64,000 nucleotides of DNA. It comes from Flavobacterium sp. CFS9. GTDB taxonomy: Bacteria; Bacteroidota; Bacteroidia; Flavobacteriales; Flavobacteriaceae. Location of the stretch: assembly GCF_041154745.1 (NCBI RefSeq), contig NZ_AP031573.1, positions 3,224,001-3,288,000 of the forward strand, given 5' to 3'. Position 1 is the first letter of the stretch, and every line of letters starts with the position of its first letter. The position numbers were made by a program, and so were the translations under genes. Shown one piece after another: positions 1 to 18,360 of this stretch. Below the pieces are notes generated by a model. It searched no databases. It was not told the origin of the DNA and saw only the letters and a list, made by a program, of their open reading frames with translations.

Positions 1-3000
1 CTCGTCGAATACAATGAACTTATTGAAAGGGATATGGTTATACTCTTTCACACTTGAAAAGATATTAAGCATAATGACAAACAGACCAAGGGCTTCGTCT
101 TTAACAATGAATTCATCTCTTAAATCGACTATGATTAATCTGCCAGGTTTAATATTATCCCGCATAAAAATAGTATCATCAATATATTCTTGAGCAAAAT
201 TTAGTTTTTGACGCGCTAATGCTTTCTGAGATGACGTTAATAATTCTGATTCTTCGACACTTTCTCTAAGACCATTCAAAGAAAGATTATTTCTTTGGGA
301 CCTCATAATCATTTTTAGTTGTCTTATATAAGCCGAATCATTACCGATTGCTCCTAACAAAAACATCCAATCTTGTACATTCAATTCTTGAGAATTGAAT
401 GCTATTGGTTTTATTTCGATAGAAGGGAATTCTCGTTTACGCTCTTCTAATTTATCAGTAGGGGTTAAAAGTACTATGTCTTTAATGGAGGCAGGATTTG
501 CACCGTATTTTTCCTTTAAAATTGCCAATTCATATTCTTCATTGTTCTCGTATATCATTGAGGTAAACTCAGGTTCATAATCCATACTTTCACTATAATG
601 AAAAATTACACCGGCAAGAGGGCTCTTTAAAATATTTACATTTTGCACTTCTTTGAGGACCATTTCAGAAACTGTTCCTATAGTGTAACTTTTACCACCA
701 CCTTGAACACCAAACAAACTTATAGTATTGGTTTCAGATAAATCAATAGCAATTTTTTTACTATGAATTGATGTTCCAATTAAACCGTACTGATTTGATG
801 GCGATGATTTACCAATCATAATGTCAAATTTAGGAGCTATGATTTCGGTTACTGTTCTCGTTTCAGTAGTAGTTGAATTTGACTGTACCGTGCTAGGCGA
901 AGTTGAATCTATTTCAATTGATGGTTCTAAATTACTAACTTCAGAATGATTCCCATTTAAATGAATTGTAGTTTGAACTATATTTGCATTATCAATAGTA
1001 TAAGAACTATCTTCATCCTTGATTGCTTCACTTGCAAAAGCGAGTTCTTTTTTCTCATTTTCATAAATTTTAGGATTAACTGGAGCTTCTGACTGACTTG
1101 GTTTTAACTTTGGTTCAAATTTCTTTAGAAATGGTTTTAATTTATCCTTTACATTAATGCTATTTGCTAATTCATTTGACAGCTCATTATCTTCAAGTCT
1201 TGTAGTATTTAAATCAGAGTTAGCGTCTAAAATTTCTTTGATTAAAGAATGACCAAATGTAAAAAAGGTTGTATTATCATCGTCTACTTTTTTAAGATGC
1301 CTTTTATCAAAGGAAAAGTCGAAAATGAAACCAATTTTATTAAAACTCAATTTAAAACCTTCATTTAATGTTTGCATGAAGTTGATATAGGAATGATATG
1401 CGTTTTCAGATAGGTATTGGTAACGTTTTGCTCTTTCAATATAAAACTGAAAAATGCGCTTCAAATCTAAATTTTTAATTTCACGATCGAGTCTGTCTTC
1501 AGATTTAAAATCATTACGATCAAAATGAGTTTTTAACGCTAAGATTGTATTTTCAATTTGGCTTATTATTTTAGCTTTCAACTCCTCTCGTTCGACATGA
1601 TTAATGAATGATCTGCATTTTATTTCTAATACTGCAATATTAATCGTTCGAGTTTGTGCATCAATTGTCACAATTAAATTATCGGCTCTACTTTTTGAAT
1701 CAGAGCTTAAGTTTTCAAATAATTCTTGATGTAAATCGATAGGAACAATAAAGGCATTATCTAATAAACCTTTTTTTTGGAGTACTCTTTTAGAAAAAGC
1801 GGAACCAATTACTTCAAAAGCTTTATTTTTTGAAGAGTTGAGTTGAAGTACGAGTGAACTACTGATAGCTCGAACATCTTCTAATAATGTTTTGATACAC
1901 AAGACCCCTTCTTCGGTATTCGTATCAAGACCAAATTCTTCAAAATGAGGACTCAATAATCCAATTATTTCTGAAGATGGTTTAGTTGTAAGGTAAGAAG
2001 AAATACCTGTAACATCCTCACTAGGTATATAATCAAGTAAGAATGGTATTTCGGTATCTGTGGAAGGCTGGTCAAAGATTTGAGGGCCTAAATTTTTATC
2101 AAATGTTACTACCCAATCTGAATATTCGTGTAAATGAGAAATTAAGACTTTGTCACGATCATTAAGTTCTAATTGAATAGCAGGTAGTGAAGTTGTGTTA
2201 TGAGAGGCTAAAGTACATGCAATATTTTTTTGAAAATTTGTAAATAAATTTGTTGAAATAGCAGATTTGGCCTTGTTCACATCAATATAATTGATCCACC
2301 TCATTAAATCCTTTTCTTTGTCAATGTTCACTTCGGTAGAGTTACTTATTAAAATCCCATTTAAGCAATCAGATTTGTACTCATTACTTGGTTTAATAAG
2401 GGTAATTTTAGAATTAAAAGGATTTACTAAAAAGCTAATATGTGCATTATATTCTTCAGGAGCTACTAAGAAATCGCCTATTTCGTTTATGGAAAATCTT
2501 AATTTCGGAAACAATCTATTTTCAGAAGCTTGAGAAAATAATTCCGCTTCTTCTGAAATATTTGTTTCTGGATTAATTAATTCTTTTAAAGCATTACCAG
2601 GTTCAATTAAAGAAATATTACCCACAAAAATTCGAACTTCAAATTTTACATCTTGATATTCCGAAGTTTTTCCTATCTCAACAAAGGCCTCTGCAAATTT
2701 ATCAGCATCTCCCACATTGAATAAATTAATTACTAATTTATCGGTATAGGGGTGTTGTATTAAAAAGTTCTTCAAGTGCTTTACTAGTAACGATTTACTC
2801 ACTTCATTGTCAGAGTAATTGTCTTTTGTAATATTTAATAATGACTTGTAGTACTGTTTTAATTGATGTGTTACAGGCACTAAATTATCATTCCCTTTTA
2901 AGTAATCAGCATTAAAGTAAATACCCCAGCCCAAAGTAAGCTCGCCAGCGTATTCATAATTATCGAAATTAAAAGGATCAACAATAACAAAGGGGTTATT

Positions 3001-5097
3001 GGATGGATGTACTTTGCCTAAGAATAATTCTTGTAATTTAGCCCATTCTTTAAGATGATCTTTATAGCGCATTGTTTTTTCCTGCCAGTCATCAAATACT
3101 TCAATTAAGTTGTAAAACCATGCTAATCGTAAAGGATGTAAAGGTGATAAAAGCACGGCATTTATCGATTCGTTATTCGGAAGTTTCGTTTTAACCTTAA
3201 CAAGATCTAAAAATTGAATTTCTGCGTATACTAATTTTAGTTTATCCTGTTCGGAAGTATCAATATCTGTTTTGCTAATTTTTTTATTTAACTCACTAAG
3301 CCACTTGTTATAAAGATCTAAATATTCTTTAATGTCTTCTTTAAATTCGGCAATATTAGCCGTTTCAAAAATCCCGTTGTTAGTTATATTAGAAGCAATG
3401 ATTTTTTTGAAAACATTATCGCGTGCACTTACCATTTTCTTAGGGACAATATCATTTAAAGTGCTCGTTATGAATTCTATATTCTCGAATCCTAATTTCG
3501 TGTAATTATTACTTAGTTTAACATTGACATATCCGATATTATACGCTTGCTTTAATAATTCATTTTGGATCAATCTAAGCTTGGATGAAATAATAACTTG
3601 GTAATTGTGCTTGCTATTATAATTAATATGAAATACGGAATTAACCTTCGGTTTATCATCATTTAACCAAATATTTGAAGATTCGCTAGGAAGAGGGAAG
3701 TCTGCTTCGACACCATTTTTCAATAAATCGATATTGAATTTAAAATGACCTTGCAGTACATTGTTTAGTTTATCTTTTCTTTGATTTTCTTCTTTCTCTG
3801 GATTTTCAGTTATTTCGTATTCAAAATCTTCGGTATCACAAGTTAATTTGAAATTTAAATAGTCTTTAGCTTCTTTCGTTTTTCCTTCCTTTTCCCAAGC
3901 TTCTTGAATTTGAATACTTTGAAAATTGTCATTGTGGTTTAGAATTGCACCATTTTGGTCTTCAGCAATGATTTTAAAGAAATAGGAACCTTCTTCTAAA
4001 TTATTAGGATTTAGTTCAATTTTAGCTTCTCTATATTCTTGTTTAGCCGTAGTGTTGCTTAATTTTCTCAATGTATTAATTTCGATGCCCGCATAACCAT
4101 CTACCGCCATTAAGACTACTCTGAAGAATTTTAAATCATCCACTTGATTCGGAGGAGGAGTTGTTTTGAAACGAATCACTACATTAGAGTTTGCGTTCTC
4201 TTTTGCTTTTAAAATTTTTCTTCCTTCTTCTTCAACAAAATCAGTAGATCTGATTTCAAGAATCTCTAGTTTAATTTCTTCAAAATTTAAGAGAGGAATT
4301 TTCCAATTGTTAAACCATAAGTTGGATTGGTTTTCGGCAATAGTATTCACTAAATCTGCAATCGTTTTGATATCGGTTTCTTTTTTGAAAAGATTCACAA
4401 TATCTTTTTGAATTGTATCTTTTTCTATTTTTAAATTGTCGACTCTATCGTATAAAGTTTTATTGAAAGCGCCCAATAAACTACAACTGTCTTGATTTAA
4501 AGTTAGTCGGGAACGGATTTGATTTACTTCTTGAAGTAGGTTTAAATCAGGTAGTAATTCTAGAAAATGCAATAGCTTACCGAAATACTCTTTTTCAAAA
4601 TTATTTTCGGTTAAACCAATTAAATAGAGTATATAGTTAAATTTGTTTTTTTTAGCAGGTTTTACGATATCGTCAAAAGCCTTTGTAACCACTCTAAATT
4701 CGGAAGGTATTTCATTAATCAAATTTTTTAGTAATTCTTGTTCAATGTTGTCTAACGCAATTTCTTTAAATGTAGCGTTACCATATGAGTCTTCAGCAGC
4801 TGTTCTGTTATTTGCTGGAATAAGAATCAATAAAGGTCTTTGTTGGTTGTTTCTAAATTCAATTAATTTGGTTGCTGAAATATAACACTCCTCTTCCTCC
4901 ATTTCACTAATGATAAACACATCAATGTTTGAGAATTGTTTTTTGAGTTCTTCCCAAAGCACAACTAATTGATGAGCACCTAAACCAGTAATTTTCATAC
5001 AATGACCTGGTTTGGCATTCTGGAATTCATTACGATGAATTTTGGTAATCAATTCAACGATTTTTGAATAATATATTTGTTTAAAATTACTTTTCAT
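1..5097 (-). CDS. Large HerA/FtsK-like ATPase, MAD8-like (3' part beyond window)
   Basis: Open reading frame of 1699 codons running off the left edge; start ATG at 5097, 11 nt after the stop of the upstream gene. The first ~1400 residues show no domain I recognise. Near residue 1460 is a Walker A motif (GVQGGGKSYT), and at the very edge a Walker B (FIVFDEAHKYM), so the ATPase domain is C-terminal, as in HerA/FtsK-type and DptH-like defence translocases. Family knowledge: the last gene of methylation-associated defence systems is a large ATP-binding protein (MAD8). Position as last gene of a methylase/HsdS/kinase operon supports that reading. The C-terminus lies outside the window. The ATPase type is well supported; the MAD8 label is inference. 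Confidence 0.75.
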   Translation of the reverse strand, partial: MKSNFKQIYYSKIVELITKIHRNEFQNAKPGHCMKITGLGAHQLVVLWEELKKQFSNIDVFIISEMEEEECYISATKLIEFRNNQQRPLLILIPANNRTAAEDSYGNATFKEIALDNIEQELLKNLINEIPSEFRVVTKAFDDIVKPAKKNKFNYILYLIGLTENNFEKEYFGKLLHFLELLPDLNLLQEVNQIRSRLTLNQDSCSLLGAFNKTLYDRVDNLKIEKDTIQKDIVNLFKKETDIKTIADLVNTIAENQSNLWFNNWKIPLLNFEEIKLEILEIRSTDFVEEEGRKILKAKENANSNVVIRFKTTPPPNQVDDLKFFRVVLMAVDGYAGIEINTLRKLSNTTAKQEYREAKIELNPNNLEEGSYFFKIIAEDQNGAILNHNDNFQSIQIQEAWEKEGKTKEAKDYLNFKLTCDTEDFEYEITENPEKEENQRKDKLNNVLQGHFKFNIDLLKNGVEADFPLPSESSNIWLNDDKPKVNSVFHINYNSKHNYQVIISSKLRLIQNELLKQAYNIGYVNVKLSNNYTKLGFENIEFITSTLNDIVPKKMVSARDNVFKKIIASNITNNGIFETANIAEFKEDIKEYLDLYNKWLSELNKKISKTDIDTSEQDKLKLVYAEIQFLDLVKVKTKLPNNESINAVLLSPLHPLRLAWFYNLIEVFDDWQEKTMRYKDHLKEWAKLQELFLGKVHPSNNPFVIVDPFNFDNYEYAGELTLGWGIYFNADYLKGNDNLVPVTHQLKQYYKSLLNITKDNYSDNEVSKSLLVKHLKNFLIQHPYTDKLVINLFNVGDADKFAEAFVEIGKTSEYQDVKFEVRIFVGNISLIEPGNALKELINPETNISEEAELFSQASENRLFPKLRFSINEIGDFLVAPEEYNAHISFLVNPFNSKITLIKPSNEYKSDCLNGILISNSTEVNIDKEKDLMRWINYIDVNKAKSAISTNLFTNFQKNIACTLASHNTTSLPAIQLELNDRDKVLISHLHEYSDWVVTFDKNLGPQIFDQPSTDTEIPFLLDYIPSEDVTGISSYLTTKPSSEIIGLLSPHFEEFGLDTNTEEGVLCIKTLLEDVRAISSSLVLQLNSSKNKAFEVIGSAFSKRVLQKKGLLDNAFIVPIDLHQELFENLSSDSKSRADNLIVTIDAQTRTINIAVLEIKCRSFINHVEREELKAKIISQIENTILALKTHFDRNDFKSEDRLDREIKNLDLKRIFQFYIERAKRYQYLSENAYHSYINFMQTLNEGFKLSFNKIGFIFDFSFDKRHLKKVDDDNTTFFTFGHSLIKEILDANSDLNTTRLEDNELSNELANSINVKDKLKPFLKKFEPKLKPSQSEAPVNPKIYENEKKELAFASEAIKDEDSSYTIDNANIVQTTIHLNGNHSEVSNLEPSIEIDSTSPSTVQSNSTTTETRTVTEIIAPKFDIMIGKSSPSNQYGLIGTSIHSKKIAIDLSETNTISLFGVQGGGKSYTIGTVSEMVLKEVQNVNILKSPLAGVIFHYSESMDYEPEFTSMIYENNEEYELAILKEKYGANPASIKDIVLLTPTDKLEERKREFPSIEIKPIAFNSQELNVQDWMFLLGAIGNDSAYIRQLKMIMRSQRNNLSLNGLRESVEESELLTSSQKALARQKLNFAQEYIDDTIFMRDNIKPGRLIIVDLRDEFIVKDEALGLFVIMLNIFSSVKEYNHIPFNKFIVFDE

Positions 5098-5108
5098 TTT
5101 CTCTGAGT

Positions 5109-6665
5109 TTAATCCATTTGGTATCTAGGTCTTACTTTTTGCAGAATATATGCATCACTTAAATCGTTATAAAAACCAATTTGCCTTAATTTAAGTTTGA
5201 ACGCTTCTACATTTTCTTTGAAAGCTGCAATTGTATTTACATCAGCATTGTTAAAACGGTCTTCACTTAAACCATTTATAACAAGACCATATCTGTCTCG
5301 TAAATTTTTGATTAATTCTTCGATTGAAAGACTCTTGGTTGTAAACTTTTCATTATTTAGGTCTAAGACTTGAATTTGCACCAATGCTTCTAGTAACCTT
5401 GTCCCTAATACATATCTACGAGGATGTTTTTTGCTTCTGCCTTGCGCTAAATAACCTCTTTCATTATTCTTTTGAGCAACGCTATCCATAAATTGCGGAT
5501 AATATTTTAATTGATACGGTCCTTTTATCTTCATCAATAATTCGACATATTTATCAAAATATGTTGCTTCGTACTTGACCATATCGTTCACTAAAAGCTT
5601 ATCATCTTTATCAAAGTTACCGTAGATATAATCCCAGTGGGTTTCAAATTTGAGCTCAAAATTTTCATCTTTATTTTTTAGAATTTTCAAAATTTCAATT
5701 AAAGAATTTGAGTCTCCTTTGTCCAATTTATATTTAGAGCTTACTGCATTTACTTGAAAAGTTGCTTTTATGTAATTGTAAAGCGCGTTATAATTTTTTG
5801 TTGCATCTTCAATGGCGAGTGATGAAATTTTACTTTCAAAATTATCGGTTACATCTACCACAATATACCAATTATCCGTAACCTCAATTGTACCTTCTTC
5901 AATCATTTTTGGTAATAAATGAATTACTTTACTGATGTAAAGCGAAAGGTGAAAGGAAGTTATTGTTTTTAGGTAATCGATTAAAACATTTCTTGGGATT
6001 TCATTTTTATAAACCAATAGTTTATGAATGTCATCACAGTATAATTCTGCTTGCTTTTTTAATAATGGTCTTATTTTATTTAACTCAGAATTACTTTCCA
6101 AATAGCCTGGATTTACATTTTTTATTAGATGAAGAATACCTAAACTATCTACGTCTAGTGAATTTCCATTAAGAAACTGTCCTTGATTGGTGTCCCAACC
6201 ATCTTGTAAAAAGTTTTTTAATTCTGTTTTAACTGCAGGTTTTTGCCCCAGCATTAAATATATTTGATCGGCGCTAAAATAATCTCTCGTATTTGGAGCG
6301 TTTCTCACACGATAACTTTCTAAATGTATCGGTCTTAGTGAAGACACTTTTTCCTTTTGCGAATTTCCTCTATTTACCAAGTTTGTTAAATTACTTCGTA
6401 ACCATAGTTCTACTGCTTCAGGATTTTCAGTAAAACCGGAAAGATTACCTTCTTGCTCTAGTTTTAAGAAAATTTCTTTTAGTTTACCTAATTCGATAAA
6501 AACATTCTCCCCTTTACGGGTTCTTTGTTTGGGTCTCGAACCATTATGTTTGAGTAGCATAAACAAGTTAACCAATGTGCTATCAATATTATTTACTTTA
6601 GCATCTGGGGTAAAGATTAATTCGTTACGAAAAACCCCTTCATCTTTATTCAAATTAATAGCCAT
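5109..6665 (-). CDS. Unrecognised defence-operon protein, MAD7-like by position
   Basis: 518 residues, no signal peptide, no transmembrane segment and no motif I recognise. It is rich in Lys, Asn and Leu and looks largely helical. A basic motif (GRSKKHPRRYVLGTRLLEAL) near residue 415 could touch nucleic acid. It starts 2 nt after the kinase gene stop and ends 11 nt before the big ATPase start, so it is surely translated with them. In the MADS gene order as I remember it, this slot (between kinase and terminal ATPase) is MAD7. The assignment rests on position only; function unknown. Confidence 0.6.
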   Translation of the reverse strand: MAINLNKDEGVFRNELIFTPDAKVNNIDSTLVNLFMLLKHNGSRPKQRTRKGENVFIELGKLKEIFLKLEQEGNLSGFTENPEAVELWLRSNLTNLVNRGNSQKEKVSSLRPIHLESYRVRNAPNTRDYFSADQIYLMLGQKPAVKTELKNFLQDGWDTNQGQFLNGNSLDVDSLGILHLIKNVNPGYLESNSELNKIRPLLKKQAELYCDDIHKLLVYKNEIPRNVLIDYLKTITSFHLSLYISKVIHLLPKMIEEGTIEVTDNWYIVVDVTDNFESKISSLAIEDATKNYNALYNYIKATFQVNAVSSKYKLDKGDSNSLIEILKILKNKDENFELKFETHWDYIYGNFDKDDKLLVNDMVKYEATYFDKYVELLMKIKGPYQLKYYPQFMDSVAQKNNERGYLAQGRSKKHPRRYVLGTRLLEALVQIQVLDLNNEKFTTKSLSIEELIKNLRDRYGLVINGLSEDRFNNADVNTIAAFKENVEAFKLKLRQIGFYNDLSDAYILQKVRPRYQMD

Positions 6666-6667
6666 AA

Positions 6668-9600
6668 TTAGATATTTAACTTGTTAATAATTATTTTACT
6701 AGAGCCGGTTTTTTTAATTGAATAGAACTCTCTATTGTTAGGAGTAACAACAATTTCATCATATTTTAAGTTCTCTAGTAGATTTTTAAAAACAATTAAT
6801 TCCACAAACTTTCCTTTTAGGTCATTTAACGAAGGACTAAATCCTTTTTGAATGAAATACAGCATTTCGAATAAATCTAATGAAATGGTTAAGGAGATGT
6901 GTTTGTGTTTTTTGTGTCTAAAAATTAAACTATCCGCTTCGTATTCTATATACTTAGTTAGATGTTCCGCCTTATTTACAAATAAATCGAATTCCTCCAA
7001 AGCAAAAAGTTTGAACGATTTGCCGTAAGGGTCTTTAATCTCAGTAGAAGCTAAGACTAAATTTTTCTCATCGAGTTCTTTATTGTTACATCCTTCATTT
7101 AATGAAACGGCACGTGAAATCGTTTTTTTAATATTAGCTTCCAGTAATTCAGTACTTAATATATTTACAAAATCAAAAACTGATTTATAAGGCAAACGCA
7201 ATAAATATGAAGGTTTACCTATTTCAAGGGTTTTGTCCTGATTGTCGTTTTTGGCAATAATAGTATTGATATTTGCTAATAGTTTACCTTCGAAATATTG
7301 ATGGCGAATAAACACTTTCTGTCTTTCACGGATAGCGTTTATATACTCTTGGTTTTGTTCGTAGGCAGGAGAAAATGATTTTATTTCATTGAAAATATTG
7401 ATAAAATTGTATTCTCTATCTTCAAAACTCAAATAGTCTTTTACAGCGTGTTTGTTAAAGAATAATTCTCTATCTAATTTTGGAATCGCTACTTCACCAA
7501 TGTCTGTTTCTCTAATTAAATTGATAAGACGGTCTTTAGCGCCTGAATCATCATTTTTAGGGTTCGAAATATTGAAATAAAAGAGGTTCCAAAAATTTTC
7601 GATATTCCCATTTGATTCTTCCATTAGACCTGGAATTTCTTCACAAGCAAAATCACGGGTTAATAAAAAAGCGATGAAAGAACGAATATCACGCATTGTA
7701 ATGTGCAATTCACGTTTTAAGCTTACCGTTCTTAGAACCCATTCTAATCTTTTGATAACTGCATCACCTGAAACCTTATCGCTAAACGTTTTGACATTGT
7801 AATTAATAAAACATGAGTTTGCCAAATCGCAGCCCTCACAATTCTTCCAAAGTTCCTTACGAGTTAACTGTTCTATTTGTTTTTTGAATAAGCTGTTTTC
7901 TTCGTAGCTAGCAGCCACCACCGACCTTAAATTAAGATTGATAATTAAAACTCCATCGGGTAGTGTAAAATTCCCTTCTTCGTAGAAGTAATCTTCTATG
8001 TTTTTTGCTAATTTTTTATGTTTGGTTGAAGTAGTTAAAAATTCAACGAGACGACCTTCGTTGATGGCAATAATTCTACCTTCTTCCGCTCTGTTATAAT
8101 TCGATTGATTTTCAAAAGGGGCAAAGAAATTATCTAGAACCGCTGTGTTTTCCGTATCTTTTTCATCTTGGGAACCATCATAATTACTTTCATAATATTC
8201 GCCATTAATTTGGAATCGAGCTCCGTTATTATGTGCAAAATGTTGAATGTTTTTTACAGAAGGACTTTCTTCAATCTTTTTTACAAAAGCTGTTTTACCA
8301 TCACCAGCATTACCTGTAATAATTATTAATTTGTATTTACCATCAATAATAGCAGGAAGTAAAGTTTTATCAAGTTTTGTTGGGGTATAAGTTTGCTTGT
8401 CTAAATCGCTTGTATTAGTATTGACTCTGGTACCAAAATTTCCGTGCTTGGATTGACTGTATAATGAATTTACATAATCGACCATATTGATCCCTTCGAC
8501 CGAAATTTTATGAGCTTTAATTTTGTCTTTGTTTTGTTCAAACAATTCCTTCATAGCGTTATAAACTCGGTCAATATTACCAGGATTAAAATTGCGAGCA
8601 CCACCTTGCCAAAACGTATTGTTTATGATTATTTCATCATCAACTTTTAAGACTAATTTGATTTTTTCTCCTAAGTCAATTGAGGTTTTATACTTTTCGA
8701 TATTTTCTTTAAACTTCCCTAAGGCTTTACCAATTGCATCGTGTAAATTGACATAGGTATTGTTGCTGTTGAATAGTTTTAGATTGAAAGCATGTCCTTG
8801 AATGATGGATATTTGAGTATGGTATAATTTATTTCTTGAACTTACTTCAGTAGCCGTACTTTCAATGTTTTCTAGGATATCATTTTCAATTGCTCTTAGT
8901 GCATTAAGCATTTCTTGGGCCGATTGAAATCTGTTATTTTTGTTGGTTTCAATTGCTTTTAAAATGAAATTTGAAAATACAATAGATATTCTTGGCTCAA
9001 TGGTTTTAGGTGTATTTGCTACTCGGTCTCTCATTGGCATTTTATTTGGATGCCAAGGATATTGTTTGCAAATTAATTCAAACATAGTAACCCCAAGTGC
9101 GAACAAATCGGCAGTGAAATCCCAATTTACTTTGTAATTGCTTTCAATTAGATCAGGAGCTAAATAAGGGTTTGTACCTACAAAATCTTTATTTTCATGG
9201 TTAGTTGAAGCGACATTAAAATCTATTAAAACGAAGCGTTCACCTTTGTCCCAGATGATATTTTGTGGTTTAATGTCACGATGAATGATTGGTCTTTCTT
9301 TTTGCTGCATTTCTACTAAAGCAGCTAAAATATCGATACCTACATTGTATACTTGATGAATGGGCATACTTATATCGGTAGCGGTATATTGACGCAGGTT
9401 TTCACCCTCCAAATATTCCATTACAGTATAAAACTGACCATTGGGCGTTTCGCCATTCCAGCTAAATTTTACAATATTATTGTGATGTAGTTCAATTAAA
9501 GCCAGGTATTCGTCTTTAACTGAATTGACAAATACACTTTCATTAAATAATTTAAGGGTATAAAATTTATCTTGTAAACGATGTTTTACTTTAAAAACTT

Positions 9601-11140
9601 TTGAATAACCTCCTTTACCTAATACTTTATGAATGGCATAATCGCCAATCGTATCTCCTTCTTTTATTTCTTCAAAAGGGATGTTTTTTACCGTAGTAGG
9701 AAGGCTGTTTTCATTTTTAATATTATTTGTATTTTGTGCTAAAGCCGTATCGATAATCTCTAATAATTTTTCGATACTTTCAATTCGTTGAAATTCATCA
9801 GTAATAATCGATTTTTGACAGATATCATCGATCCATTTTGGAAGATTGGCATTGACTTTAGATGGTAGTAAGCTTTCCGGAAGTTTACCTCCTAAATTGT
9901 TTAATTCGAATGGTGTTGCGAAAGGTTCTTTTTCTGAAAATAGCCAATAAATTAAGACTCCTAACGAGTAAATATCGGAAGCAATTGAGGCATCACCAAT
10001 TGTTAATTCTAACGGATGATAAGCTGTTGCATTGCTTTGGTTGATGGTTGGCATTACGGTATAGCCTTCCTCGGAATGGTCTACAAAATACGATTTACCA
10101 AAATTACCTAAATAGGCATAACCGCTGCTTAAATAAATATTATCGGGATTGATATCACGATGGAAAATATTTTCTTTATGCGCTTCTTTGAGAGCAACCA
10201 TGATATTTTTGATAATCTCTACTTTTTCTTTGAAGGTAAAGGTTTTGATTCTTGCTTCAGATCGTAACGAATTTTCATCTAAGAAATCGGAAATTTCATA
10301 GAAAAGATGGTTTACGTTGTCTATTCTAAATTCTACATTTAAAATAAAAGGTTTGGTTTTTAGTTTATTTAAAGCATTGTATTGGTTTTTAATTTTGTTT
10401 TCCCTGTTTTTTAGTTCTTCGGGTGATAAACCAACAACTTGTAAGGCATATTCTTTTATTCTTCTATGAGAAGAAGTAGCCCCAATAGGTTTGGCTAAAT
10501 ATTCAACCAGATTGTTTTCTTGATGTAGAATTTTAACGATTTCGAACTCATAGATTTGTTTTTTGTCTATGGCTCTTTTTTGTGCTTGTTGTCCGGTTAA
10601 GAAATTAACAATATCATTTTGAATATCTTCTATCGCATCTTCCGACTTATTTAATTCTGTTGCATCGGTAAGGAAGTTAATTAATCTTTTGTTTAATTGA
10701 AAGGTTAATTTATCATCCTCAGGAGAAATAATAGGCGGACTGTAATTATCATAAGATAATGTCAGTGTATTTTGAATCCATGCCTTTCCCCAATAGCTGT
10801 TTTGCTCTTTTAGTTTTGAAGCCAAAATGGCCGTTTTTTGTCGGTTGGTTCTTAATGGATTGCGACGAGGTTGATCGTTGAGATACCAGGTATTTTCGTC
10901 TCCTTCAATACGCCCACGCCAATCTTTGTTTTCTATATTGAAAATGGCATGGGGAGCCACTACTATAAGATCGTATTCCCAATATTGAGTTTGGTTGTTT
11001 TTGGGATTGGTAGAAACTAATTCGATGTTTGGAATTAGGCAAAAGTCATCTGGGAGGTTGACATTTAAAAAGTCCAATAACTTTTGTTCACCTGCGTTTA
11101 CTACCGCATCAAAATAGGTGGGTTTTACAATTATTGCCAT
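6668..11140 (-). CDS. NERD - double protein kinase - P-loop NTPase, MAD6-like
   Basis: 1490 residues. Residues ~10-130 look like a NERD (nuclease-related) domain (YDLIVV, NIENKDWRGRI). Residues ~270-470 form a first Ser/Thr kinase fold with HRDINPDN near 324, but the DFG position reads GNFG, so it may be inactive. Residues ~495-770 are a second, more canonical kinase: glycine loop VLGKGGYSKVF (~503), catalytic HRDIKPQN (~620), DFN, and GTNPYLAPDL. Near 940 is a Walker A (GNAGDGKT) of an ATPase domain, followed by a cysteine cluster (CEGCDLANSC, ~1105). The start overlaps the HsdS-like stop by 10 nt. Kinases of this architecture occur in methylation-based defence systems (MAD6). Kinase calls are firm; NERD and MAD6 are likely. 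Confidence 0.8.
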   Translation of the reverse strand: MAIIVKPTYFDAVVNAGEQKLLDFLNVNLPDDFCLIPNIELVSTNPKNNQTQYWEYDLIVVAPHAIFNIENKDWRGRIEGDENTWYLNDQPRRNPLRTNRQKTAILASKLKEQNSYWGKAWIQNTLTLSYDNYSPPIISPEDDKLTFQLNKRLINFLTDATELNKSEDAIEDIQNDIVNFLTGQQAQKRAIDKKQIYEFEIVKILHQENNLVEYLAKPIGATSSHRRIKEYALQVVGLSPEELKNRENKIKNQYNALNKLKTKPFILNVEFRIDNVNHLFYEISDFLDENSLRSEARIKTFTFKEKVEIIKNIMVALKEAHKENIFHRDINPDNIYLSSGYAYLGNFGKSYFVDHSEEGYTVMPTINQSNATAYHPLELTIGDASIASDIYSLGVLIYWLFSEKEPFATPFELNNLGGKLPESLLPSKVNANLPKWIDDICQKSIITDEFQRIESIEKLLEIIDTALAQNTNNIKNENSLPTTVKNIPFEEIKEGDTIGDYAIHKVLGKGGYSKVFKVKHRLQDKFYTLKLFNESVFVNSVKDEYLALIELHHNNIVKFSWNGETPNGQFYTVMEYLEGENLRQYTATDISMPIHQVYNVGIDILAALVEMQQKERPIIHRDIKPQNIIWDKGERFVLIDFNVASTNHENKDFVGTNPYLAPDLIESNYKVNWDFTADLFALGVTMFELICKQYPWHPNKMPMRDRVANTPKTIEPRISIVFSNFILKAIETNKNNRFQSAQEMLNALRAIENDILENIESTATEVSSRNKLYHTQISIIQGHAFNLKLFNSNNTYVNLHDAIGKALGKFKENIEKYKTSIDLGEKIKLVLKVDDEIIINNTFWQGGARNFNPGNIDRVYNAMKELFEQNKDKIKAHKISVEGINMVDYVNSLYSQSKHGNFGTRVNTNTSDLDKQTYTPTKLDKTLLPAIIDGKYKLIIITGNAGDGKTAFVKKIEESPSVKNIQHFAHNNGARFQINGEYYESNYDGSQDEKDTENTAVLDNFFAPFENQSNYNRAEEGRIIAINEGRLVEFLTTSTKHKKLAKNIEDYFYEEGNFTLPDGVLIINLNLRSVVAASYEENSLFKKQIEQLTRKELWKNCEGCDLANSCFINYNVKTFSDKVSGDAVIKRLEWVLRTVSLKRELHITMRDIRSFIAFLLTRDFACEEIPGLMEESNGNIENFWNLFYFNISNPKNDDSGAKDRLINLIRETDIGEVAIPKLDRELFFNKHAVKDYLSFEDREYNFINIFNEIKSFSPAYEQNQEYINAIRERQKVFIRHQYFEGKLLANINTIIAKNDNQDKTLEIGKPSYLLRLPYKSVFDFVNILSTELLEANIKKTISRAVSLNEGCNNKELDEKNLVLASTEIKDPYGKSFKLFALEEFDLFVNKAEHLTKYIEYEADSLIFRHKKHKHISLTISLDLFEMLYFIQKGFSPSLNDLKGKFVELIVFKNLLENLKYDEIVVTPNNREFYSIKKTGSSKIIINKLNI

Positions 11141-12540
11141 GCGTCTATTTCTTTTTCAATTAGGTCTATTGCTTGGTTTTCTTTTGTTGTTGCTAAGTAG
11201 AGATTAGTGTATGCAGTTTTTATTTCCGTATCAATTTTTAGCATTTGGTCACTTTCTAAAACTGGAACAGGAATTTCCTTCAAAAGATTAGGAATTGGTC
11301 TACAAAGTTTTGTTCCAGATTGGGTTGAACGAATTAGTCTAAAACCATAATCTGAAGCAAGCCAGCAGTATAGATAACCAGATGGTACTGACTCGTTTGT
11401 TTTTAATCTAATGAATTCCCCAGAAACTAATTGCTTCTCCAATTCTTCGTTAGCAAATATTGTTCGGCAAAAAGTTTCTCCTTCTCCTAATGTGCCTACA
11501 CCTGCAATTAAAACCTCACCATATTCTACTAATTTTACATTACCTACAGCCCTTTTAGAAAGGTTTTTACCAACCTTTATAGAATTAAAAATATCCGATT
11601 GGTTTAATAATTTAATACCATTATCGCTGTTTACTTCTAGTCTTTTGAATGAACCGGTAGAAAAATATCCGTTATCTAACAAGCAGTCTTTGAGATTTAG
11701 ATACGATTTTGATGTAATAATATTAGTGATCCTTTTTATTCTTCTAGAATAATTAAAAGCATTGATTGTGTTAGCATTTATTTCTTTAATGGAAATACTA
11801 TATGTTGAAACTTCCCTATTAGCAACATGATTGCCAAAATATTCGTAGTCATCATTTGTAAGTTCTTCTAAATTCAATAAATCATATAAATACTTATTAG
11901 CACCTTTTAATAATTTATTTGCTTCCACACGCAAATCAGCGGCTTCCATAATTAATCCATGAATTTTTTGTTGTTCTGTTTCTGGAAAGAGAGGAATGGG
12001 TATATCTTTCACGAAATCGGGTTCTATATGTTGAATTACCGCACCGAAAGTACCTTTCGTTAATAAATTATATCCATACTTGCTGGACAAGTAAGCATAT
12101 AAATAACCTGAGTATACATTTTTTTTTGGCTTGATTCTTATAATATGTTCACTTGCAGCCTTACCTTTGTGAAATTCATTTGAGTAAATAGTGTTACCTA
12201 TAGTACCAGACCTTGAGATAAGTATCCATCCAGTATCTAAAAGATAGTTTTCTAAGTTTCTAGTAAGTTTCTTTGATATTAATTTCAAGCTGAATAAATT
12301 ATTTTTCAACATATCTGAGATACCCATGAAAGGTATTCCATTTATGACATTATTTACATAATATCTCTTATCACGACCACCATAAAATATGTCTTCAGCA
12401 AAATAGGAAATATTAGTTAGTTCATATTTTGATTTTTGTAATTTACTTAAGACAATATTACCAGAGCTTAAATATGGTTTAGCGTCCAATCTATAAGCGT
12501 TGCTACCAAATATTGATTTTTTGATATTTAAGACTTTCAT
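11131..12540 (-). CDS. Type I-like specificity subunit (HsdS), MAD5-like
   Basis: 469 residues with the duplicated layout of HsdS proteins: target-recognition domain 1 (residues ~1-175), central helical spacer starting at PLFPETEQQKIHGLIMEAAD, target-recognition domain 2 (~250-415), and a second helical spacer ending at the C-terminus (DQMLKIDTEIKTAYTNLY). These proteins choose the DNA sequence methylated by the partner methylase. The gene starts 5 nt after the methylase stop and overlaps the kinase gene by 10 nt, so it belongs to the same operon. No HsdR-type motor-nuclease is encoded in the window. The HsdS class is clear; MAD5 is inference from context. Confidence 0.85.
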   Translation of the reverse strand: MKVLNIKKSIFGSNAYRLDAKPYLSSGNIVLSKLQKSKYELTNISYFAEDIFYGGRDKRYYVNNVINGIPFMGISDMLKNNLFSLKLISKKLTRNLENYLLDTGWILISRSGTIGNTIYSNEFHKGKAASEHIIRIKPKKNVYSGYLYAYLSSKYGYNLLTKGTFGAVIQHIEPDFVKDIPIPLFPETEQQKIHGLIMEAADLRVEANKLLKGANKYLYDLLNLEELTNDDYEYFGNHVANREVSTYSISIKEINANTINAFNYSRRIKRITNIITSKSYLNLKDCLLDNGYFSTGSFKRLEVNSDNGIKLLNQSDIFNSIKVGKNLSKRAVGNVKLVEYGEVLIAGVGTLGEGETFCRTIFANEELEKQLVSGEFIRLKTNESVPSGYLYCWLASDYGFRLIRSTQSGTKLCRPIPNLLKEIPVPVLESDQMLKIDTEIKTAYTNLYLATTKENQAIDLIEKEIDAWQ

Positions 12541-12545
12541 ATTGG

Positions 12546-14549
12546 CTAAAGAATATTTGAAAATTTGATAAACTCTTCTACAATTTTCGGCAAATCGTCG
12601 TCGAGCATTTTTTGTTTTTCGCGACGTATTCTTAGTTCAAGCCCGTTATCTTTGTTGGTTACCACATATTTGTTATCAACCGTAAATAAGATTTCTGCAC
12701 CGTCTTCATCACGAACATAAATAGGGTTTCCTCTACGGTCTTTGCCCAGTTTCTCGGCAATTGCCATAAATACTTCATAATCTTCAACGGTTTCGCGAGC
12801 AATGCTTTTCTCGTTATCAGTTTTCTTTTGTAAAAACAATAAGGATGCTTGTACTCCTACTTGGGGTAAAAAGGCTTCTATAGCTAAATCTACAGATGCA
12901 AGGATTTTAAAGTTTTCTAAAATCCATTCTCTTACTGGTAAAGTATTTGGATTTCCTAAAATACCATCGGGTAATACGATTGCCATTTTACCTCCCTGTT
13001 TTAATAAGTTGTAACAAGCCTCAATAAATAATACTTCAGGAGCATCTGAGTATTTAGAAAGGAAATACTTGTCAGCAATTTCTTTTTCGACTTTTACTTT
13101 TGCTCCAAATGGAGGATTGGTAAAAATCATATCAAACTTACCTCGTGCATCATCGGTGTAATTATTATCGATATCTGCCATGCGCTCTAAGCTTAGTTTT
13201 ATGGAAACCTTGATTTTGTTTAATTCGGTAGGATCTTCCCAATCCGGGTAATCTAATGAGTTTACGTGAAATATGTTGGCATGTCCATCACCGGCCATTA
13301 CCATATTCATACGAGCTGCCTTTTTTAAGTCCGGATCAAAATCGAAACCGTAAATATTAGTCTCCGCATATTGACGCACACGTTCGTTTACTTCGTAGGT
13401 ATTAAACTTTTCAACTAATATTACATCGTCTAAATCAGGGTATAGTTCTTTAGCAATTTGTTTACGCACGTGTTCCAGTACCATTACTAAAAATCCTCCC
13501 GAACCACAGGCTGGATCTAAAACACGACTATTTTCATTTGGATTCAACATTTCCACCATAGCCCGAACAATATTACGTGGTGTAAAGAATTGCCCAGCTT
13601 CTTGTTTTAAAGTGTTGCTTACAATGGTTTCATAAGCCAATCCTTTTACATCGACAGTTGCATCCAGGAAGGAGTATTTTGCCAATTCGCTGGCAATAAA
13701 AGCAAGACCTTTATCGGTAAGTGCAATGGCTTCATTTCCATCAAAAACATCTGAAAATGTTCCGTCTTGTTTTAGTTCTTCGAAAATATCTTTGATGCGT
13801 TTGGCAACAGCTCTTCGTCCTTCATCTGTATTTTTTTCTTTAATACCTACCCAGAACTTTTTACGATAGGATTCTCCTGTTTCTATACATTTGAATCTAC
13901 GTTTTTCATCGTATAGTTTGCAGAAAATTAAATATAAGAGCTGCCAAAAGGCATCTTTTTTTCTTCCTTCGTTACCATAAATGTAGTCGTGAGAACGTTT
14001 GAAAACTTTAATTAGGGAGTCATTGGCAGGTTTTCTACTGTGTGAACGGTCGGCACGATCTATGTCTTCAATAGTTTCACCATTCCCAGGGAAATCTGAA
14101 ATATCTGTGAATTTGAAATCAAAATTATAATCATCGTCTTCTTTTTGTAGGTATTTTAAATCGTTGCCATTAGTCCAAAGACCAAAATCACAATTATCTA
14201 AAGCGGCAAGCGCATTTTCAAGAGTGATAGTAACTCCTTTCTTTTTATCGTTTTCTTTTATTTTTTCGTCTTGAATAGCTGCTATTCTAAGAATGTTTTC
14301 TTGATTTTGCTCAGCATTATCTTTGTAAACAACCACTTCGACTTTCTGTTTTTTAGATTTACCAGTATCTGGATCGACAAATACAATGTTTACATCACGA
14401 GCAATATTTTTTAAATCAAAACCATATTCTTCACTTAACATAAGAATAATGGATTGTATGTTTTTTTCTTGAGAAGTCGCTTTCTTAGGTTTGTCGGTCA
14501 ACACACAAACTAATTGGTTGTCTTCTATGATTATATCTTCTGTTGTCAT
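12546..14549 (-). CDS. N6-adenine DNA methyltransferase (HsdM type), MAD2-like
   Basis: 667 residues. The SAM-binding motif I (RVLDPACGSGGF, ~residue 345) and catalytic motif IV (NPPF, in FDMIFTNPPFGAK, ~residue 480) define a gamma-class N6-adenine methylase. The HsdM N-terminal helical domain lies between ~190 and 330. The first ~150 residues resemble the HSDR_N-like domain often placed in front of such methylases, but I do not see an intact nuclease ExK motif there. It lies 11 nt after the nucleotidyltransferase gene and 5 nt before the HsdS-like gene. Likely role: host DNA marking for self recognition by the downstream kinase/ATPase proteins. Confidence 0.9.
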   Translation of the reverse strand: MTTEDIIIEDNQLVCVLTDKPKKATSQEKNIQSIILMLSEEYGFDLKNIARDVNIVFVDPDTGKSKKQKVEVVVYKDNAEQNQENILRIAAIQDEKIKENDKKKGVTITLENALAALDNCDFGLWTNGNDLKYLQKEDDDYNFDFKFTDISDFPGNGETIEDIDRADRSHSRKPANDSLIKVFKRSHDYIYGNEGRKKDAFWQLLYLIFCKLYDEKRRFKCIETGESYRKKFWVGIKEKNTDEGRRAVAKRIKDIFEELKQDGTFSDVFDGNEAIALTDKGLAFIASELAKYSFLDATVDVKGLAYETIVSNTLKQEAGQFFTPRNIVRAMVEMLNPNENSRVLDPACGSGGFLVMVLEHVRKQIAKELYPDLDDVILVEKFNTYEVNERVRQYAETNIYGFDFDPDLKKAARMNMVMAGDGHANIFHVNSLDYPDWEDPTELNKIKVSIKLSLERMADIDNNYTDDARGKFDMIFTNPPFGAKVKVEKEIADKYFLSKYSDAPEVLFIEACYNLLKQGGKMAIVLPDGILGNPNTLPVREWILENFKILASVDLAIEAFLPQVGVQASLLFLQKKTDNEKSIARETVEDYEVFMAIAEKLGKDRRGNPIYVRDEDGAEILFTVDNKYVVTNKDNGLELRIRREKQKMLDDDLPKIVEEFIKFSNIL

Positions 14550-14560
14550 TCTCTATTTTA

Positions 14561-15409
14561 TTATTTGCTCAGTTGTTCTACAATTATTTTGATGCTTTCT
14601 AGAACATCATCGAATTGTATTGTTTTATGTGTTTCTATGATTTGATTGATAAGAATACTTGCTTCTTGTCTTTCAATATCTTTGTTTAAAACGGCTAATA
14701 GATATTCTCTTAGCTTAGGATTATCACTTACTAAATTGCGTAAATCTATACCTATCAAAGAAGCTGATGCTTTTAGTTCGGTATAATTATCTATTCCATA
14801 TACTTCGTCATAATGTTCTGTGGCTGCTCTTTCATCATTAATGTTGAGATAATTTTGCATGATGAAAGCGATATCATCCGCATCTTTGTTTCCTTTGTGG
14901 TGGCGATCTTTCCAAGCCACAATTTTTAAAAGAAAAATGCTGATTAAGTTTACTATTTCAAATTGAATTTCTTCATCTAGAATTATTGATTGGGTCTGTT
15001 TTTCAGCTTCTTCAAAACCTAGAACGTTCATTGCAAAAGTTTGATCTGGTGGCCAGTATATTTTATCCTGTTCGTCCATTATACTGCCAAACGGAACGAT
15101 GTCCAATTGAAAATCTTGTAAGTATAAAAACCGTTGCTGTTGTTGCTTATCTTTTGAAAAATTATCCAACTCAACAAGGTCTTTTGCAATTTCTTCAAAT
15201 TGTTCCCATTTATCGATACAGATTGCAATATCGATATCTTGGGTTCTACGGCCTGATTTTTGACCGTTTATTTCTAAAATGATATCCCTTGCAGTTGCAC
15301 CAATCACAAAGAATTTTATTTGTTTTTCTTCGAAAAAGGGAATTAAATCGGCTAATAAAGGTTTTAAAAGCGGATGCTCGATTTTAGCACTATCTATTTT
15401 ATAACTCAT
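14561..15409 (-). CDS. AbiEii-like nucleotidyltransferase (type IV TA toxin-like)
   Basis: 282 residues with a nucleotidyltransferase signature near the N-terminus: IGATARD followed by RRTQDIDIAI, where the spaced Asp residues would bind metal. The rest is helical, as in AbiEii/AbiGii toxin-like transferases. Its start overlaps the upstream HTH gene by 11 nt, the usual arrangement of AbiEi-AbiEii pairs, and its stop is 11 nt before the methylase. Family knowledge: AbiEii proteins are nucleotidyltransferases that arrest growth unless antagonised by AbiEi. In this operon it may act as an addiction module or as an effector. Family confidence is moderate to good; the role is inference. Confidence 0.75.
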   Translation of the reverse strand: MSYKIDSAKIEHPLLKPLLADLIPFFEEKQIKFFVIGATARDIILEINGQKSGRRTQDIDIAICIDKWEQFEEIAKDLVELDNFSKDKQQQQRFLYLQDFQLDIVPFGSIMDEQDKIYWPPDQTFAMNVLGFEEAEKQTQSIILDEEIQFEIVNLISIFLLKIVAWKDRHHKGNKDADDIAFIMQNYLNINDERAATEHYDEVYGIDNYTELKASASLIGIDLRNLVSDNPKLREYLLAVLNKDIERQEASILINQIIETHKTIQFDDVLESIKIIVEQLSK

Positions 15410-16394
15410 TTTCTAAAATCATTTTAGCTGTTTCTATATTTCTATTGTTTCCACTACCTATTAAATCTGCATAAACCACTAATGATGGGGCTATATTTAG
15501 ATTTTCGTTGTTTAAACTATCTGTCCAACAAGTATTGTAAATTTTAATATTTCCATTATTATCAGGTACCAACATTAGTTCTTTGCCAATAATACTCAAT
15601 TCATCGTCTGAGTAGATGATATAATCCAAAGGTTTAAGAAAACTAGTCATTATTTCTGCAGCAGGTTCTCCTCCGAAAAATAAAAATTTGGTTTTATTAT
15701 TACTTACTATTTTACGTAAATAATCAAGATTAATTGCTTTGTAAGTTTTTCTAAATAAACGTGGCTTCAATACTTCATTGTAAGCTAGAACCCATCTTTC
15801 AATTAATTCTTCCCGATTTTTAATGATCCTTTTATCATTCGTTTTTAGGATAAAATTGCTTTCTTCTAGTTCCTTCATTATCTGACTTACAGAACCTAAA
15901 GCAATACCTGCTTTCTCTGCCAATGCTCTATAAGAAAACTCTAAAGCATGCTCTTGAGAGATTAATAAAAGAATTAGTTTAAGGCCTGCTTCTTGAAATG
16001 CTCTAGCTTGATTAATGTTTTGTGGCTTTTTTTGTTTTCTTCCTTCAATTATAATTTTTAAATGATTGGTATTGATATAGCAGTTACCTGCTACATCAAG
16101 AAAATTGATATCATTCGCAATTAAAGATTCTGCGACATCCTTTGCAATGTACTCACCAACAAATAGCAGATTTCTATCTTTATTGATGAAATTTTTGAAT
16201 TGATTTACTTGATTAAAAATAATCCCTGAATTAGAGTTTCTTGCATCTTTTTTTGCATGACAGTAAAAAGTTGTACCGTTAATTTGTATTACGGCATCAT
16301 ATGGTTCTCTGTTGCTATCTACTGAAATTTCTGTTTTTAATAATTCCTGCAGATTTGAAAAAGCCTCATAAATAAAGTCATTCCCTTTGTACAT
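15399..16394 (-). CDS. AbiEi-like antitoxin / wHTH regulator, MAD1-like by position
   Basis: 331 residues. Residues ~1-120 have a degenerate restriction-endonuclease-like pattern (YDAVIQINGTTFYCHAKK; FLDVAGNCYI). Residues ~140-190 form a winged helix-turn-helix (YRALAEKAGIALGSVSQIMK). The C-terminal half is the AbiEi-type domain (FLFFGGEPAAEIMTSFLKP). It is the first gene of the seven-gene operon and overlaps the nucleotidyltransferase gene by 11 nt. A symmetric operator lies just upstream of its start and covers the promoter, which fits autorepression as known for AbiEi. MADS operons also begin with an HTH gene (MAD1), so it may fill that role. The regulator call is firm. Confidence 0.8.
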   Translation of the reverse strand: MYKGNDFIYEAFSNLQELLKTEISVDSNREPYDAVIQINGTTFYCHAKKDARNSNSGIIFNQVNQFKNFINKDRNLLFVGEYIAKDVAESLIANDINFLDVAGNCYINTNHLKIIIEGRKQKKPQNINQARAFQEAGLKLILLLISQEHALEFSYRALAEKAGIALGSVSQIMKELEESNFILKTNDKRIIKNREELIERWVLAYNEVLKPRLFRKTYKAINLDYLRKIVSNNKTKFLFFGGEPAAEIMTSFLKPLDYIIYSDDELSIIGKELMLVPDNNGNIKIYNTCWTDSLNNENLNIAPSLVVYADLIGSGNNRNIETAKMILENEL

Positions 16395-16735
16395 GTGTTC
16401 ATTATTTTAAAGCGTTCATTGACAATGAACAATCAAATATAATGAACAAAAAATAAGTATACAACTAAAAATTGATTTTTTGTATAGGTAAATTAGTGAT
16501 GTTACAGATTAGGTGTTTTTATAAGGTGATTTAGGAACTAATTGATAAATAGTGTTATGTATTGGTTGTTGAATCAAAAGAGAGACTACCAGTAATTAGC
16601 CTCTTTGTTTTTTTAATAAACCTTAAAATGCTTTTGCATTATCTTAATGTTTCAAAGTAGGTCATGAAAATAAAATGCTGTTCTTTTGAAAAGTGGAAAA
16701 AGGTTAAGGATGCTTTTTTTAACCAGAATCATTTT
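16395..16735. other. Intergenic region between defence operon and mob genes
   Basis: Besides the operator/promoter at its left end, it contains a weak stem of AAAGAG/CTCTTT type followed by a T-run (about 16577-16615), possibly a terminator for something reading rightwards. I see no gene. The relaxase gene ends at 16736 and reads towards the defence operon. Confidence 0.4.
16397..16464 (-). promoter_or_regulatory. Defence-operon promoter with four-half-site operator
   Basis: A perfect palindrome GTTCATTG-A-CAATGAAC sits at 16414-16430. One more half-site flanks it on each side: GTTCATT at 16397-16403 and AATGAAC at 16441-16447. Each is exactly 17 nt from its inner partner and equidistant from the centre at 16422. 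On the minus strand a Bacteroidota -7 box TATATTTG (16441-16434) lies within the array and a TTG -33 box (16464-16462) lies 20 nt upstream of it. The operator would cover the -7 box and the start site, 3 nt from the ATG of the AbiEi-like gene. Autoregulation is inference. Confidence 0.7.
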
Positions 16736-17980: not shown

Positions 17981-18360
17981 TTTTCTGCTATTTTCTGGGT
18001 GTGGCCTGAGACCTCTTCCATTTTATCAAAAAGCCTTTTTCTCTGGATTTCGAACAGATAAAGATGCCCTTTGAAATCGGGAACTGTGCTGAGCGTGTTT
18101 ATCTTTCTGGCAATCTGATTGATATTATTGCCGATTGCCCGTAATTCGGAAGTAAGCAGAGCTGTCTCTTCCATCAGATCGTCTAAAGACTGGTTTCTGT
18201 AAGTGGCTACAATTGGTTTGTTGAATAAGTGGCTTCTGATGTGGTCACTTAATTTTCGGCAGGTGCTTGCTCTGAATCTTTTTTCCAGCTCGGCATACTC
18301 CAAAGGAGTGAATCGCAGTCCCACGATTCGTGTTCTGTTTGAATTTTCTCTTTTCATCAT
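17968..18360 (-). CDS. mobC: MobC-family relaxosome accessory protein
   Basis: 130 residues. The N-terminal part is ribbon-helix-helix-like (RIVGLRFTPLEYAELEKRF) and the middle carries the MobC hallmark (LRAIGNNINQIARKIN, ~residues 75-90). Family knowledge: MobC binds near oriT and opens DNA for the relaxase. The start at 18360 is supported by the RHH N-terminus and by the oriT-like repeat 70-110 nt upstream. It overlaps the relaxase gene start by 13 nt. A reading frame of 88 codons overlapping this start in another frame looks spurious. Confidence 0.85.
   Translation of the reverse strand: MMKRENSNRTRIVGLRFTPLEYAELEKRFRASTCRKLSDHIRSHLFNKPIVATYRNQSLDDLMEETALLTSELRAIGNNINQIARKINTLSTVPDFKGHLYLFEIQRKRLFDKMEEVSGHTQKIAEKWLQ

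Follow-up and report, generated by a model that had tools for sequence, protein, structure and literature searches.

We analysed a 64,000-nucleotide stretch of the 5.37 Mb genome of Flavobacterium sp. CFS9 (C1:3224001-3288000), hereafter the window. Its left end carries an operon of eight minus-strand genes related to the methylation-associated defence system (MADS). The genes encode, in order, AbiEi, AbiEii, a methylase, an HsdS protein, a NERD-kinase-P-loop protein, a protein of 518 amino acids (aa), a giant ATPase and a PP2C phosphatase:

15399..16394, minus strand: AbiEi-like antitoxin and winged-helix regulator, 331 aa (Pfam AbiEi_2)
14561..15409, minus strand: AbiEii-like nucleotidyltransferase of the type IV toxin family, 282 aa (Pfam AbiEii)
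12546..14549, minus strand: MAD2 N6-adenine DNA methylase, 667 aa (NF047738)
11131..12540, minus strand: MAD5 HsdS-like specificity subunit, 469 aa (NF047740)
6668..11140, minus strand: MAD6, 1490 aa, with NERD nuclease domain, putatively degenerate kinase, intact kinase and SspF/DndF-like P-loop module (NF047741)
5109..6665, minus strand: MAD7, 518 aa, SspG-like (NF047733)
1..5097 in the window, minus strand: MAD8, with a PD-(D/E)XK-like site and a HerA/FtsK ATPase (NF047742)
L004:1953-2630, minus strand, outside the window: PP2C phosphatase, 225 aa, overlapping the end of the MAD8 gene by 8 nt

An earlier note on this DNA had described seven packed minus-strand genes in this order, and all seven open reading frames (ORFs) were found at the coordinates listed. 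As calculated from these coordinates, their junctions measure -11, 11, 5, -10, 2 and 11 nt. The MAD8 gene extends 378 nt past the left edge of the window and encodes 1,824 aa when complete (L004:2623-8097, minus strand). The extent given in the note held for these seven genes but missed the eighth: the sequence left of the window, which it had proposed to check, contains a further gene, PP2C, and no mad3 or mad4 homologues among the neighbouring genes. All eight genes are open and either overlap or lie a few nt apart. PP2C is followed by 400 nt and then by a RadC gene. A terminator-like hairpin is located 3' of PP2C (L004:1645-1628), a weak signal given 11 such sites in the stretch compared to 8.5 +/- 2.9 in shuffled sequence.

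Five of the products scored above the NCBIfam cut-offs for MADS proteins: MAD2 (802.9 bits, cut-off 720), MAD5 (547.5, cut-off 400), MAD6 (762.9, cut-off 460), MAD7 (628.7, cut-off 410) and MAD8 (224.6, cut-off 175). This bears out the proposal that the methylase and HsdS protein are MAD2 and MAD5, and that the kinase, 518-residue and ATPase proteins resemble MAD6, MAD7 and MAD8. The PADLOC models mad2, mad5, mad6, mad7 and mad8 agree with these assignments. The top PADLOC matches were type II restriction-modification (R-M) models for the methylase and HsdS protein, and PD-T4-6 and PglW for MAD6. Because the PADLOC matches comprised the best 25 of 38 (MAD6), 76 (MAD5) and 70 (MAD2) families, we based statements of absence on Pfam. 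By this measure no HsdR protein is present among the operon products, as the note had stated; the only related signal is an HSDR_N_2 match at the N-terminus of MAD2, slightly above the cut-off (28.6 versus 25 bits). Type I R-M was rejected as an assignment.

MAD2, MAD5, MAD6, MAD7 and MAD8 lie on one strand in the same relative order as in the canonical locus L026. This locus, on a Piscinibacter plasmid, contains MAD1-MAD5 above the NCBIfam cut-offs and MAD6, MAD7 and MAD8 as recognised by PADLOC and phmmer, in the order MAD1 to MAD8. Neither head gene of our operon matched the NCBIfam MAD1 model, the remainder of the genome not being searched for MAD1. MAD3 and MAD4 were found neither in the operon nor in adjoining genes; only 5 nt separate methylase and HsdS, in line with the claim that no equivalents lie between them. 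The best genome-wide score for MAD3 was 22.5 of 420 bits, below the cut-off, and MAD4 had no match in the genome. A displacement of MAD3/MAD4 to another place in the genome was thus rejected. In the positive control for both searches, L026 scored above the cut-off as the single record of 26. A MAD4 search in 21 genomes of the phylum, run without a positive control, returned none. Note that the PADLOC mad3 model is unspecific, with 94 matches in the genome of CFS9 itself and matches in 14 of 14 control genomes. The two outcomes that the earlier note had named as fatal to its proposal, absence of similarity to MAD6-8 and mad3/mad4 just outside the window, were not observed.

We next consider the relatives of this operon in Bacteroidota. 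MAD7 was detected above the cut-off in 10 of 398 genomes of the genus, 4 of 397 in a family sample, 4 of 395 in a class sample and 1 of 395 in a phylum sample (the genome of CFS9 being counted in each), and in none of the phage records. From these genomes and three of the four plasmid records found, we compared 18 loci with complete MAD8, including that of the window. Left out were the canonical L026, L065 of G1492, the partial L030, the weak L020, L031 and L048, and, as distant or reordered, L035, L036, L037, L038, L067 and L068. MAD2-MAD5-MAD6-MAD7-MAD8 is present in 18/18 loci and MAD3/MAD4 in 0/18, and we refer to these loci as compact. The order that the earlier note had suggested looking for thus recurs, as far as this core is concerned, in 17 other loci, beyond chance. 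Its wording 'lacking two middle genes' stands with respect to absence; the loss that it implies is less certain, as MAD3/MAD4 are missing in all 18 and this may be ancestral. MAD2 of one relative, L025, is divided between two ORFs. PP2C directly follows MAD8 in 16/18 loci (AbiEi-headed 10/10, DUF6577-headed 4/6, headed by a small helix-turn-helix (HTH) protein 2/2), being missing in L023 and L055. The heads consist of AbiEi and AbiEii (9 loci), AbiEi alone (1, L062), DUF6577 (5), DUF6577 with AbiEii (1) or the small HTH protein (2); a head of AbiEii only was found in 0/18.

Some compact loci have a MAD7 only 44-46% identical to that of the window. In an unrooted MAD7 tree, canonical and compact groups were separated with a split support of 1.0 (13 versus 22 sequences of our choosing) at 28-33% identity between them. 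With L036-L038, which are distant, as the root, support for the compact node was 0.239; because re-rooting can displace support labels, the tree was repeated unrooted. The partial locus L065 is above the cut-off and its MAD7 groups with the canonical proteins, although its genome, which is fragmented, yielded no MAD3/MAD4. L035 and L067 belong to neither group and have no MAD3/4 at the locus, indicating that the absence of MAD3/MAD4 may be ancestral and that MAD3-MAD4 may have been gained by the canonical lineage. The gene order of these two loci differs, and the rooting is weak (0.81). They encode a short protein of ~590 aa matching only the SspF-like MAD6 C-terminus, followed by MAD7, MAD2, MAD5 and MAD8, with no PP2C match. 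In L068 (1489-5007), two MAD7-like genes stand side by side in tandem. A tree of concatenated MAD2/6/7/8 showed AbiE and DUF6577 heads interleaved, with L032 (AbiE) and L064 (DUF6577) paired at a support of 1.0. Therefore, the heads have been exchanged.

The head of the operon in the window is an AbiE pair, as proposed in the earlier note, with both proteins above the Pfam cut-offs. AbiEi matches AbiEi_2 with 76.2 versus 21 bits (residues 190-329) and has HTH matches at residues ~141-199; AbiEii matches its family with 27.5 versus 22.5 bits. Residues 1-140 of AbiEi form an extra N-terminal region, in which L033 and L034 read D...E-A-K as in a PD-(D/E)XK nuclease and the window has H for E. In AbiEii, G37, R54, D58, D60, R169, K175 and D179 are conserved in 10/10 homologues, and K162 and D176 in 9/10. 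By our own mapping, these residues appear to correspond to the motifs essential in AbiEii, as given in passages of PMC3985639. The pair resembles AbiE type IV toxin-antitoxin (TA) systems in its AbiEi_2 and AbiEii domains, conserved nucleotidyltransferase motifs and an inverted-repeat element at the promoter. It differs from them in the ~140 residues that precede the HTH region of AbiEi and in heading a defence core instead of standing alone. Two features make up the promoter region:

16397..16447, no strand assigned: predicted AbiEi operator, 51 bp, GTTCA-N12-GTTCA-N7-TGAAC-N12-TGAAC, four half-sites, 2 nt upstream of the AbiEi start codon
16434..16441, minus strand: TATATTTG, conforming to the Bacteroidota -7 element TAnnTTTG and lying within the operator, flanked by half-sites 1 and 2

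The operator was seen as an inverted repeat. It matches the pattern at 20/20 fixed bases, is the sole site in the window at <=3 mismatches, and was obtained in 0 of 100 shuffles. It is exact in 10/10 AbiEi-headed MADS loci (window included), the pattern being drawn from 8 of the 10 and L033 and L034 being found with it afterwards, and is absent at <=3 mismatches from 9/9 others. TAnnTTTG is the Bacteroidota -7 promoter consensus in the parts of PMC6847099 and PMC2483708 that we used. It occurs between half-sites 1 and 2 in 10/10 MADS AbiE operators, against a background of 427 in 32,000 random 24-mers. For Streptococcus agalactiae, passages of PMC7319586 and PMC3985639 describe autorepression by AbiEi via inverted repeats as established. 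The conservation of the operator supports a similar repression of the promoter by AbiEi, as judged from sequence. At <=2 mismatches the operator was detected in 22 of 338 genomes of the genus, compared to 2 for a reversed control pattern. Six of these 22 genomes are those of MADS loci and the other 16 are non-MADS, 13 of which were fetched (all except G904, G889 and G812). One copy of the pattern, L105:9774-9824, shows near-perfect palindromy over 51 bp, with no AbiEi recognised nearby.

Loci headed by DUF6577 carry a different box. The expression [CT]GGCA-N15/16-TGCC-RAA occurs in 6/6 of them, 57-91 nt upstream of the predicted head gene, and at no other place on either strand of the 440,928 bases of 19 MADS loci; since it was drawn from the same six loci, only its absence elsewhere counts as a test. 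In 4/6 loci the box runs into a TTTG located 18-19 nt before TAnnTTTG. With a distinct conserved box for each regulator type, AbiEi and DUF6577 each appear to have brought their own operator. AbiE is also found in other contexts. L100 has AbiE with the operator adjoining an HsdS gene, and L108 has AbiE near a methylase-like gene. In L099 (7110-9711), we observed operator, AbiEi, AbiEii and PP2C with no MADS core and, by tblastn with MADS queries, no MADS remnant; PP2C there matches PADLOC PDC-M21C at 5.9e-17. From these three contexts, AbiE looks like a module acquired by defence operons. The PDC-M21 B and C models of PADLOC match the AbiEii and PP2C proteins of the window and of other loci weakly to moderately. 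A literature search returned no paper naming PDC-M21 together with PADLOC.

The core retains its catalytic residues. MAD2 has the DPACGSGGF and NPPF motifs. MAD5 is the most divergent core product, the protein of the window being 31-53% identical to those of six AbiE-headed relatives, compared to 70-88% for MAD2; this divergence would fit changing target sites. In MAD6, the NERD domain scores 59.4 versus 22.1 bits in Pfam and the P-loop GNAGDGKT is invariant in 16 aligned loci. K530, D622 and D640 of kinase 2 are kept in 15/16, the exception being L067, whose short protein covers just the P-loop part at the C-terminus. Residues 781-1490 of MAD6, its last 710, match SspF at E 1e-25, and canonical MAD6 matches SspF at 2.4e-24 and DndF at 2e-9; a comparison of this C-terminus with solved structures gave nothing relevant. 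MAD7 matches SspG at E 1.7e-9, a match shared by 15/15 aligned MAD7 proteins, with no solved relative found. In MAD8, D1139, E1158, K1160 and the Walker A and Walker B residues are invariant in 16 aligned loci. We read D1139/E1158-x-K1160 as a probable PD-(D/E)XK-like site. The MAD8 profile matches solved HerA ATPases (E 1.1e-8), and within the family the SspH model is matched by 5/11 members and the DndH model by 2/11.

MADS resembles SspFGH/DndFGH in the SspF-like MAD6 C-terminus, the SspG-like MAD7 and, less clearly, a HerA/FtsK-bearing MAD8 with a PD-(D/E)XK-like site, and differs in being paired with adenine methylase and HsdS rather than with phosphorothioation genes. No phosphorothioation gene is present in the operon, each gene being otherwise assigned (the remainder of the genome was not searched). 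In the sections consulted of Rakesh et al. 2024 (PMC10853773), a subset of DndF combines NERD with an inactive and an active kinase, and DndH combines a restriction endonuclease with HerA/FtsK; the terms HsdS, HsdM, AbiE and PP2C are absent from the main text of that paper. According to passages of Wu et al. 2021 (PMC8092258), DNA that lacks the host mark is damaged by SspFGH, which is also toxic to hosts without this mark.

The analysis shows which genes are present, the families to which they belong, that the catalytic residues are intact, that the boxes are conserved and that head genes have been exchanged; we infer each biochemical step of the following mechanism. MAD2 and MAD5 would methylate adenine at a site set by MAD5 and so mark the host's DNA as self. 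MAD6, MAD7 and MAD8 would form a restriction complex of the SspFGH/DndFGH type that damages DNA without the mark, a proposal made because of the likeness to SspFGH/DndFGH and the published behaviour of SspFGH. Within the complex, MAD6 would sense via its P-loop module, kinase and NERD nuclease, MAD7 would recognise DNA, and MAD8 would translocate and cut. PP2C would probably reverse MAD6 kinase signalling, holding the complex off until infection. AbiEi would bind the four-half-site operator over the -7 element and repress the whole operon, with AbiEii as its paired toxin, a possible guard or backup effector. This auxiliary place would be held in the canonical form by MAD3-MAD4, an OLD/PARIS-type ATPase-TOPRIM pair located between MAD2 and MAD5. 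A MAD4 model is similar to OLD proteins in their C-terminal part, and thus the 'missing' MAD3-MAD4 look like an ATPase-nuclease pair; no such resemblance to the OLD/PARIS nucleases exists in the present operon, which lacks both genes. With this mechanism as a whole, we consider it likely that this operon represents a subtype of MADS in Bacteroidota rather than the canonical eight-gene form. A wider proposal is more tentative, namely that methylase and SspFGH-type core constitute a modular chassis with exchangeable slots, in which, in Bacteroidota, an AbiEi-AbiEii toxin-lock acting through the operator over the promoter alternates with DUF6577 and its own box, PP2C is an off-switch for the kinase-bearing restriction complex and the OLD/PARIS pair is the canonical counterpart. 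Breaking or silencing of the system by a phage or a mutation would then release AbiEii, so that the operon guards itself.

A rather doubtful alternative, though one with some support, accepts the MADS core and views the AbiE pair and PP2C as an independent TA/phosphatase defence module that shares only transcription and contributes nothing to MADS. The operator-AbiEi-AbiEii-PP2C set without a MADS core in L099, the AbiE pair with operator beside an HsdS gene in L100 and the interleaving of heads on the core tree are all compatible with this view. However, PP2C closes the operon, behind the largest gene, in 10/10 AbiEi-, 4/6 DUF6577- and 2/2 HTH-headed loci, and this position indicates that PP2C follows the core rather than AbiE. 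Moreover, the operator precedes the first gene of a set with junctions of -11 to 11 nt, although internal promoters are possible. That the operon is a decaying, non-functional canonical MADS that lost MAD1, MAD3 and MAD4, with AbiE and PP2C as bystanders, is very improbable. The operon indeed has no MAD1, neither MAD3 nor MAD4 reaches its cut-off in the genome, the auxiliary genes vary between relatives, and L025 has MAD2 in two ORFs. Against decay, all eight genes are open and closely packed, the catalytic residues are invariant, the MAD3/4-less order is common to all 18 compact loci, including those with the 44-46% identical MAD7, and compact and canonical MAD7 split with a support of 1.0. 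We give hardly any credence to a system of BREX (bacteriophage exclusion) type 2, or PglW type, or to ordinary type I R-M. The MAD6 N-terminus resembles PglW in PADLOC (E 1.5e-62), sharing NERD and two kinase domains with it (according to passages of PMC12839542), and MAD2, with its HSDR_N_2 match, and MAD5 resemble HsdM and HsdS. Yet MAD6 has a different, SspF-like C-terminal half and scores 225.4 bits with the PglW model, far below the cut-off of 990, and neither PglZ nor HsdR is present among the Pfam matches of the operon. BREX type 2 was rejected on this score and on the absence of PglZ.

Several observations weigh against the preferred assignment of the operon as a MADS subtype with regulatory head and tail. 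Seven of the 13 non-MADS operator matches, two of them exact, do not abut a recognised AbiEi, while 6/13 do, and the sequences from which the two promoter boxes were derived also count in the tallies of these boxes. The L099 set implies that AbiEi, AbiEii and PP2C can work alone. AbiEii is absent from 8/18 loci and PP2C from 2/18, and thus neither is essential to the core; the canonical L026 has the kinase, with no PP2C annotated after MAD8. Kinase 1 of MAD6 looks degenerate, NFG replacing DFG in the window. The MAD7 model is poor (predicted local distance difference test score, pLDDT, 59.6), with no fold match at E <= 0.001, and MAD8 of the window itself has no SspH or DndH match at E 0.1. 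Finally, the canonical comparison rests on one complete locus.

As to novelty, NCBI labels some homologues in Flavobacterium, Chryseobacterium, Epilithonimonas and Sinomicrobium as MAD7, and therefore the kind is known. The description of the operon as an 'undescribed' variant in the earlier note does not hold in this respect; it does in that no account of the architecture was found. Among the papers and passages listed by our literature search, whose scope did not extend to the founding MADS paper, none described an eight-gene architecture of this type in Bacteroidota, a MADS that has PP2C or AbiE or that is without MAD3/MAD4, a swap of regulator with operator, or a kinase-PP2C pairing. The founding paper, by Maestri et al. 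in 2024, reportedly mentions 'MADS-like systems' in its abstract, and these may include the present architecture. MADS as reported there shares MAD2, MAD5, MAD6, MAD7 and MAD8 with our operon, in the same relative order and all above the NCBIfam cut-offs here. The canonical system differs from our operon, which is without MAD1, MAD3 and MAD4 and has an AbiEi/AbiEii head with its own operator and a PP2C tail.

Directly upstream of the operon, on the same strand, are relaxase and MobC genes (16736-18360), suggesting a mobilisable element. Two complete tRNA-Ser(TGA) genes lie at 24797-24884 and 40855-40942, one of them beside a tyrosine integrase gene (39372-40595). Checked as element borders, both are full and their flanks differ, with no third copy in 16 kb to the left. 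Encoded in the 16 kb that separate these tRNA genes are M43 and trypsin-like peptidases, an HNH protein and a DUF1016/YhcG nuclease. For two large proteins, of 1,113 aa (27190-30531) and 1,439 aa (31532-35851), Pfam gave no match at E 0.001.

In conclusion, these findings suggest that the MADS core (MAD2-5-6-7-8) is separable from its auxiliary parts and that MAD3-MAD4 need not be core. They connect MADS, which is methylation-based, with the phosphorothioate-based SspFGH, as though a single restriction engine had been joined to different self-marks. They also offer testable sites: the operator common to ten AbiEi-headed loci, the second box for the replacement regulator, and the kinase and phosphatase in one defence operon.

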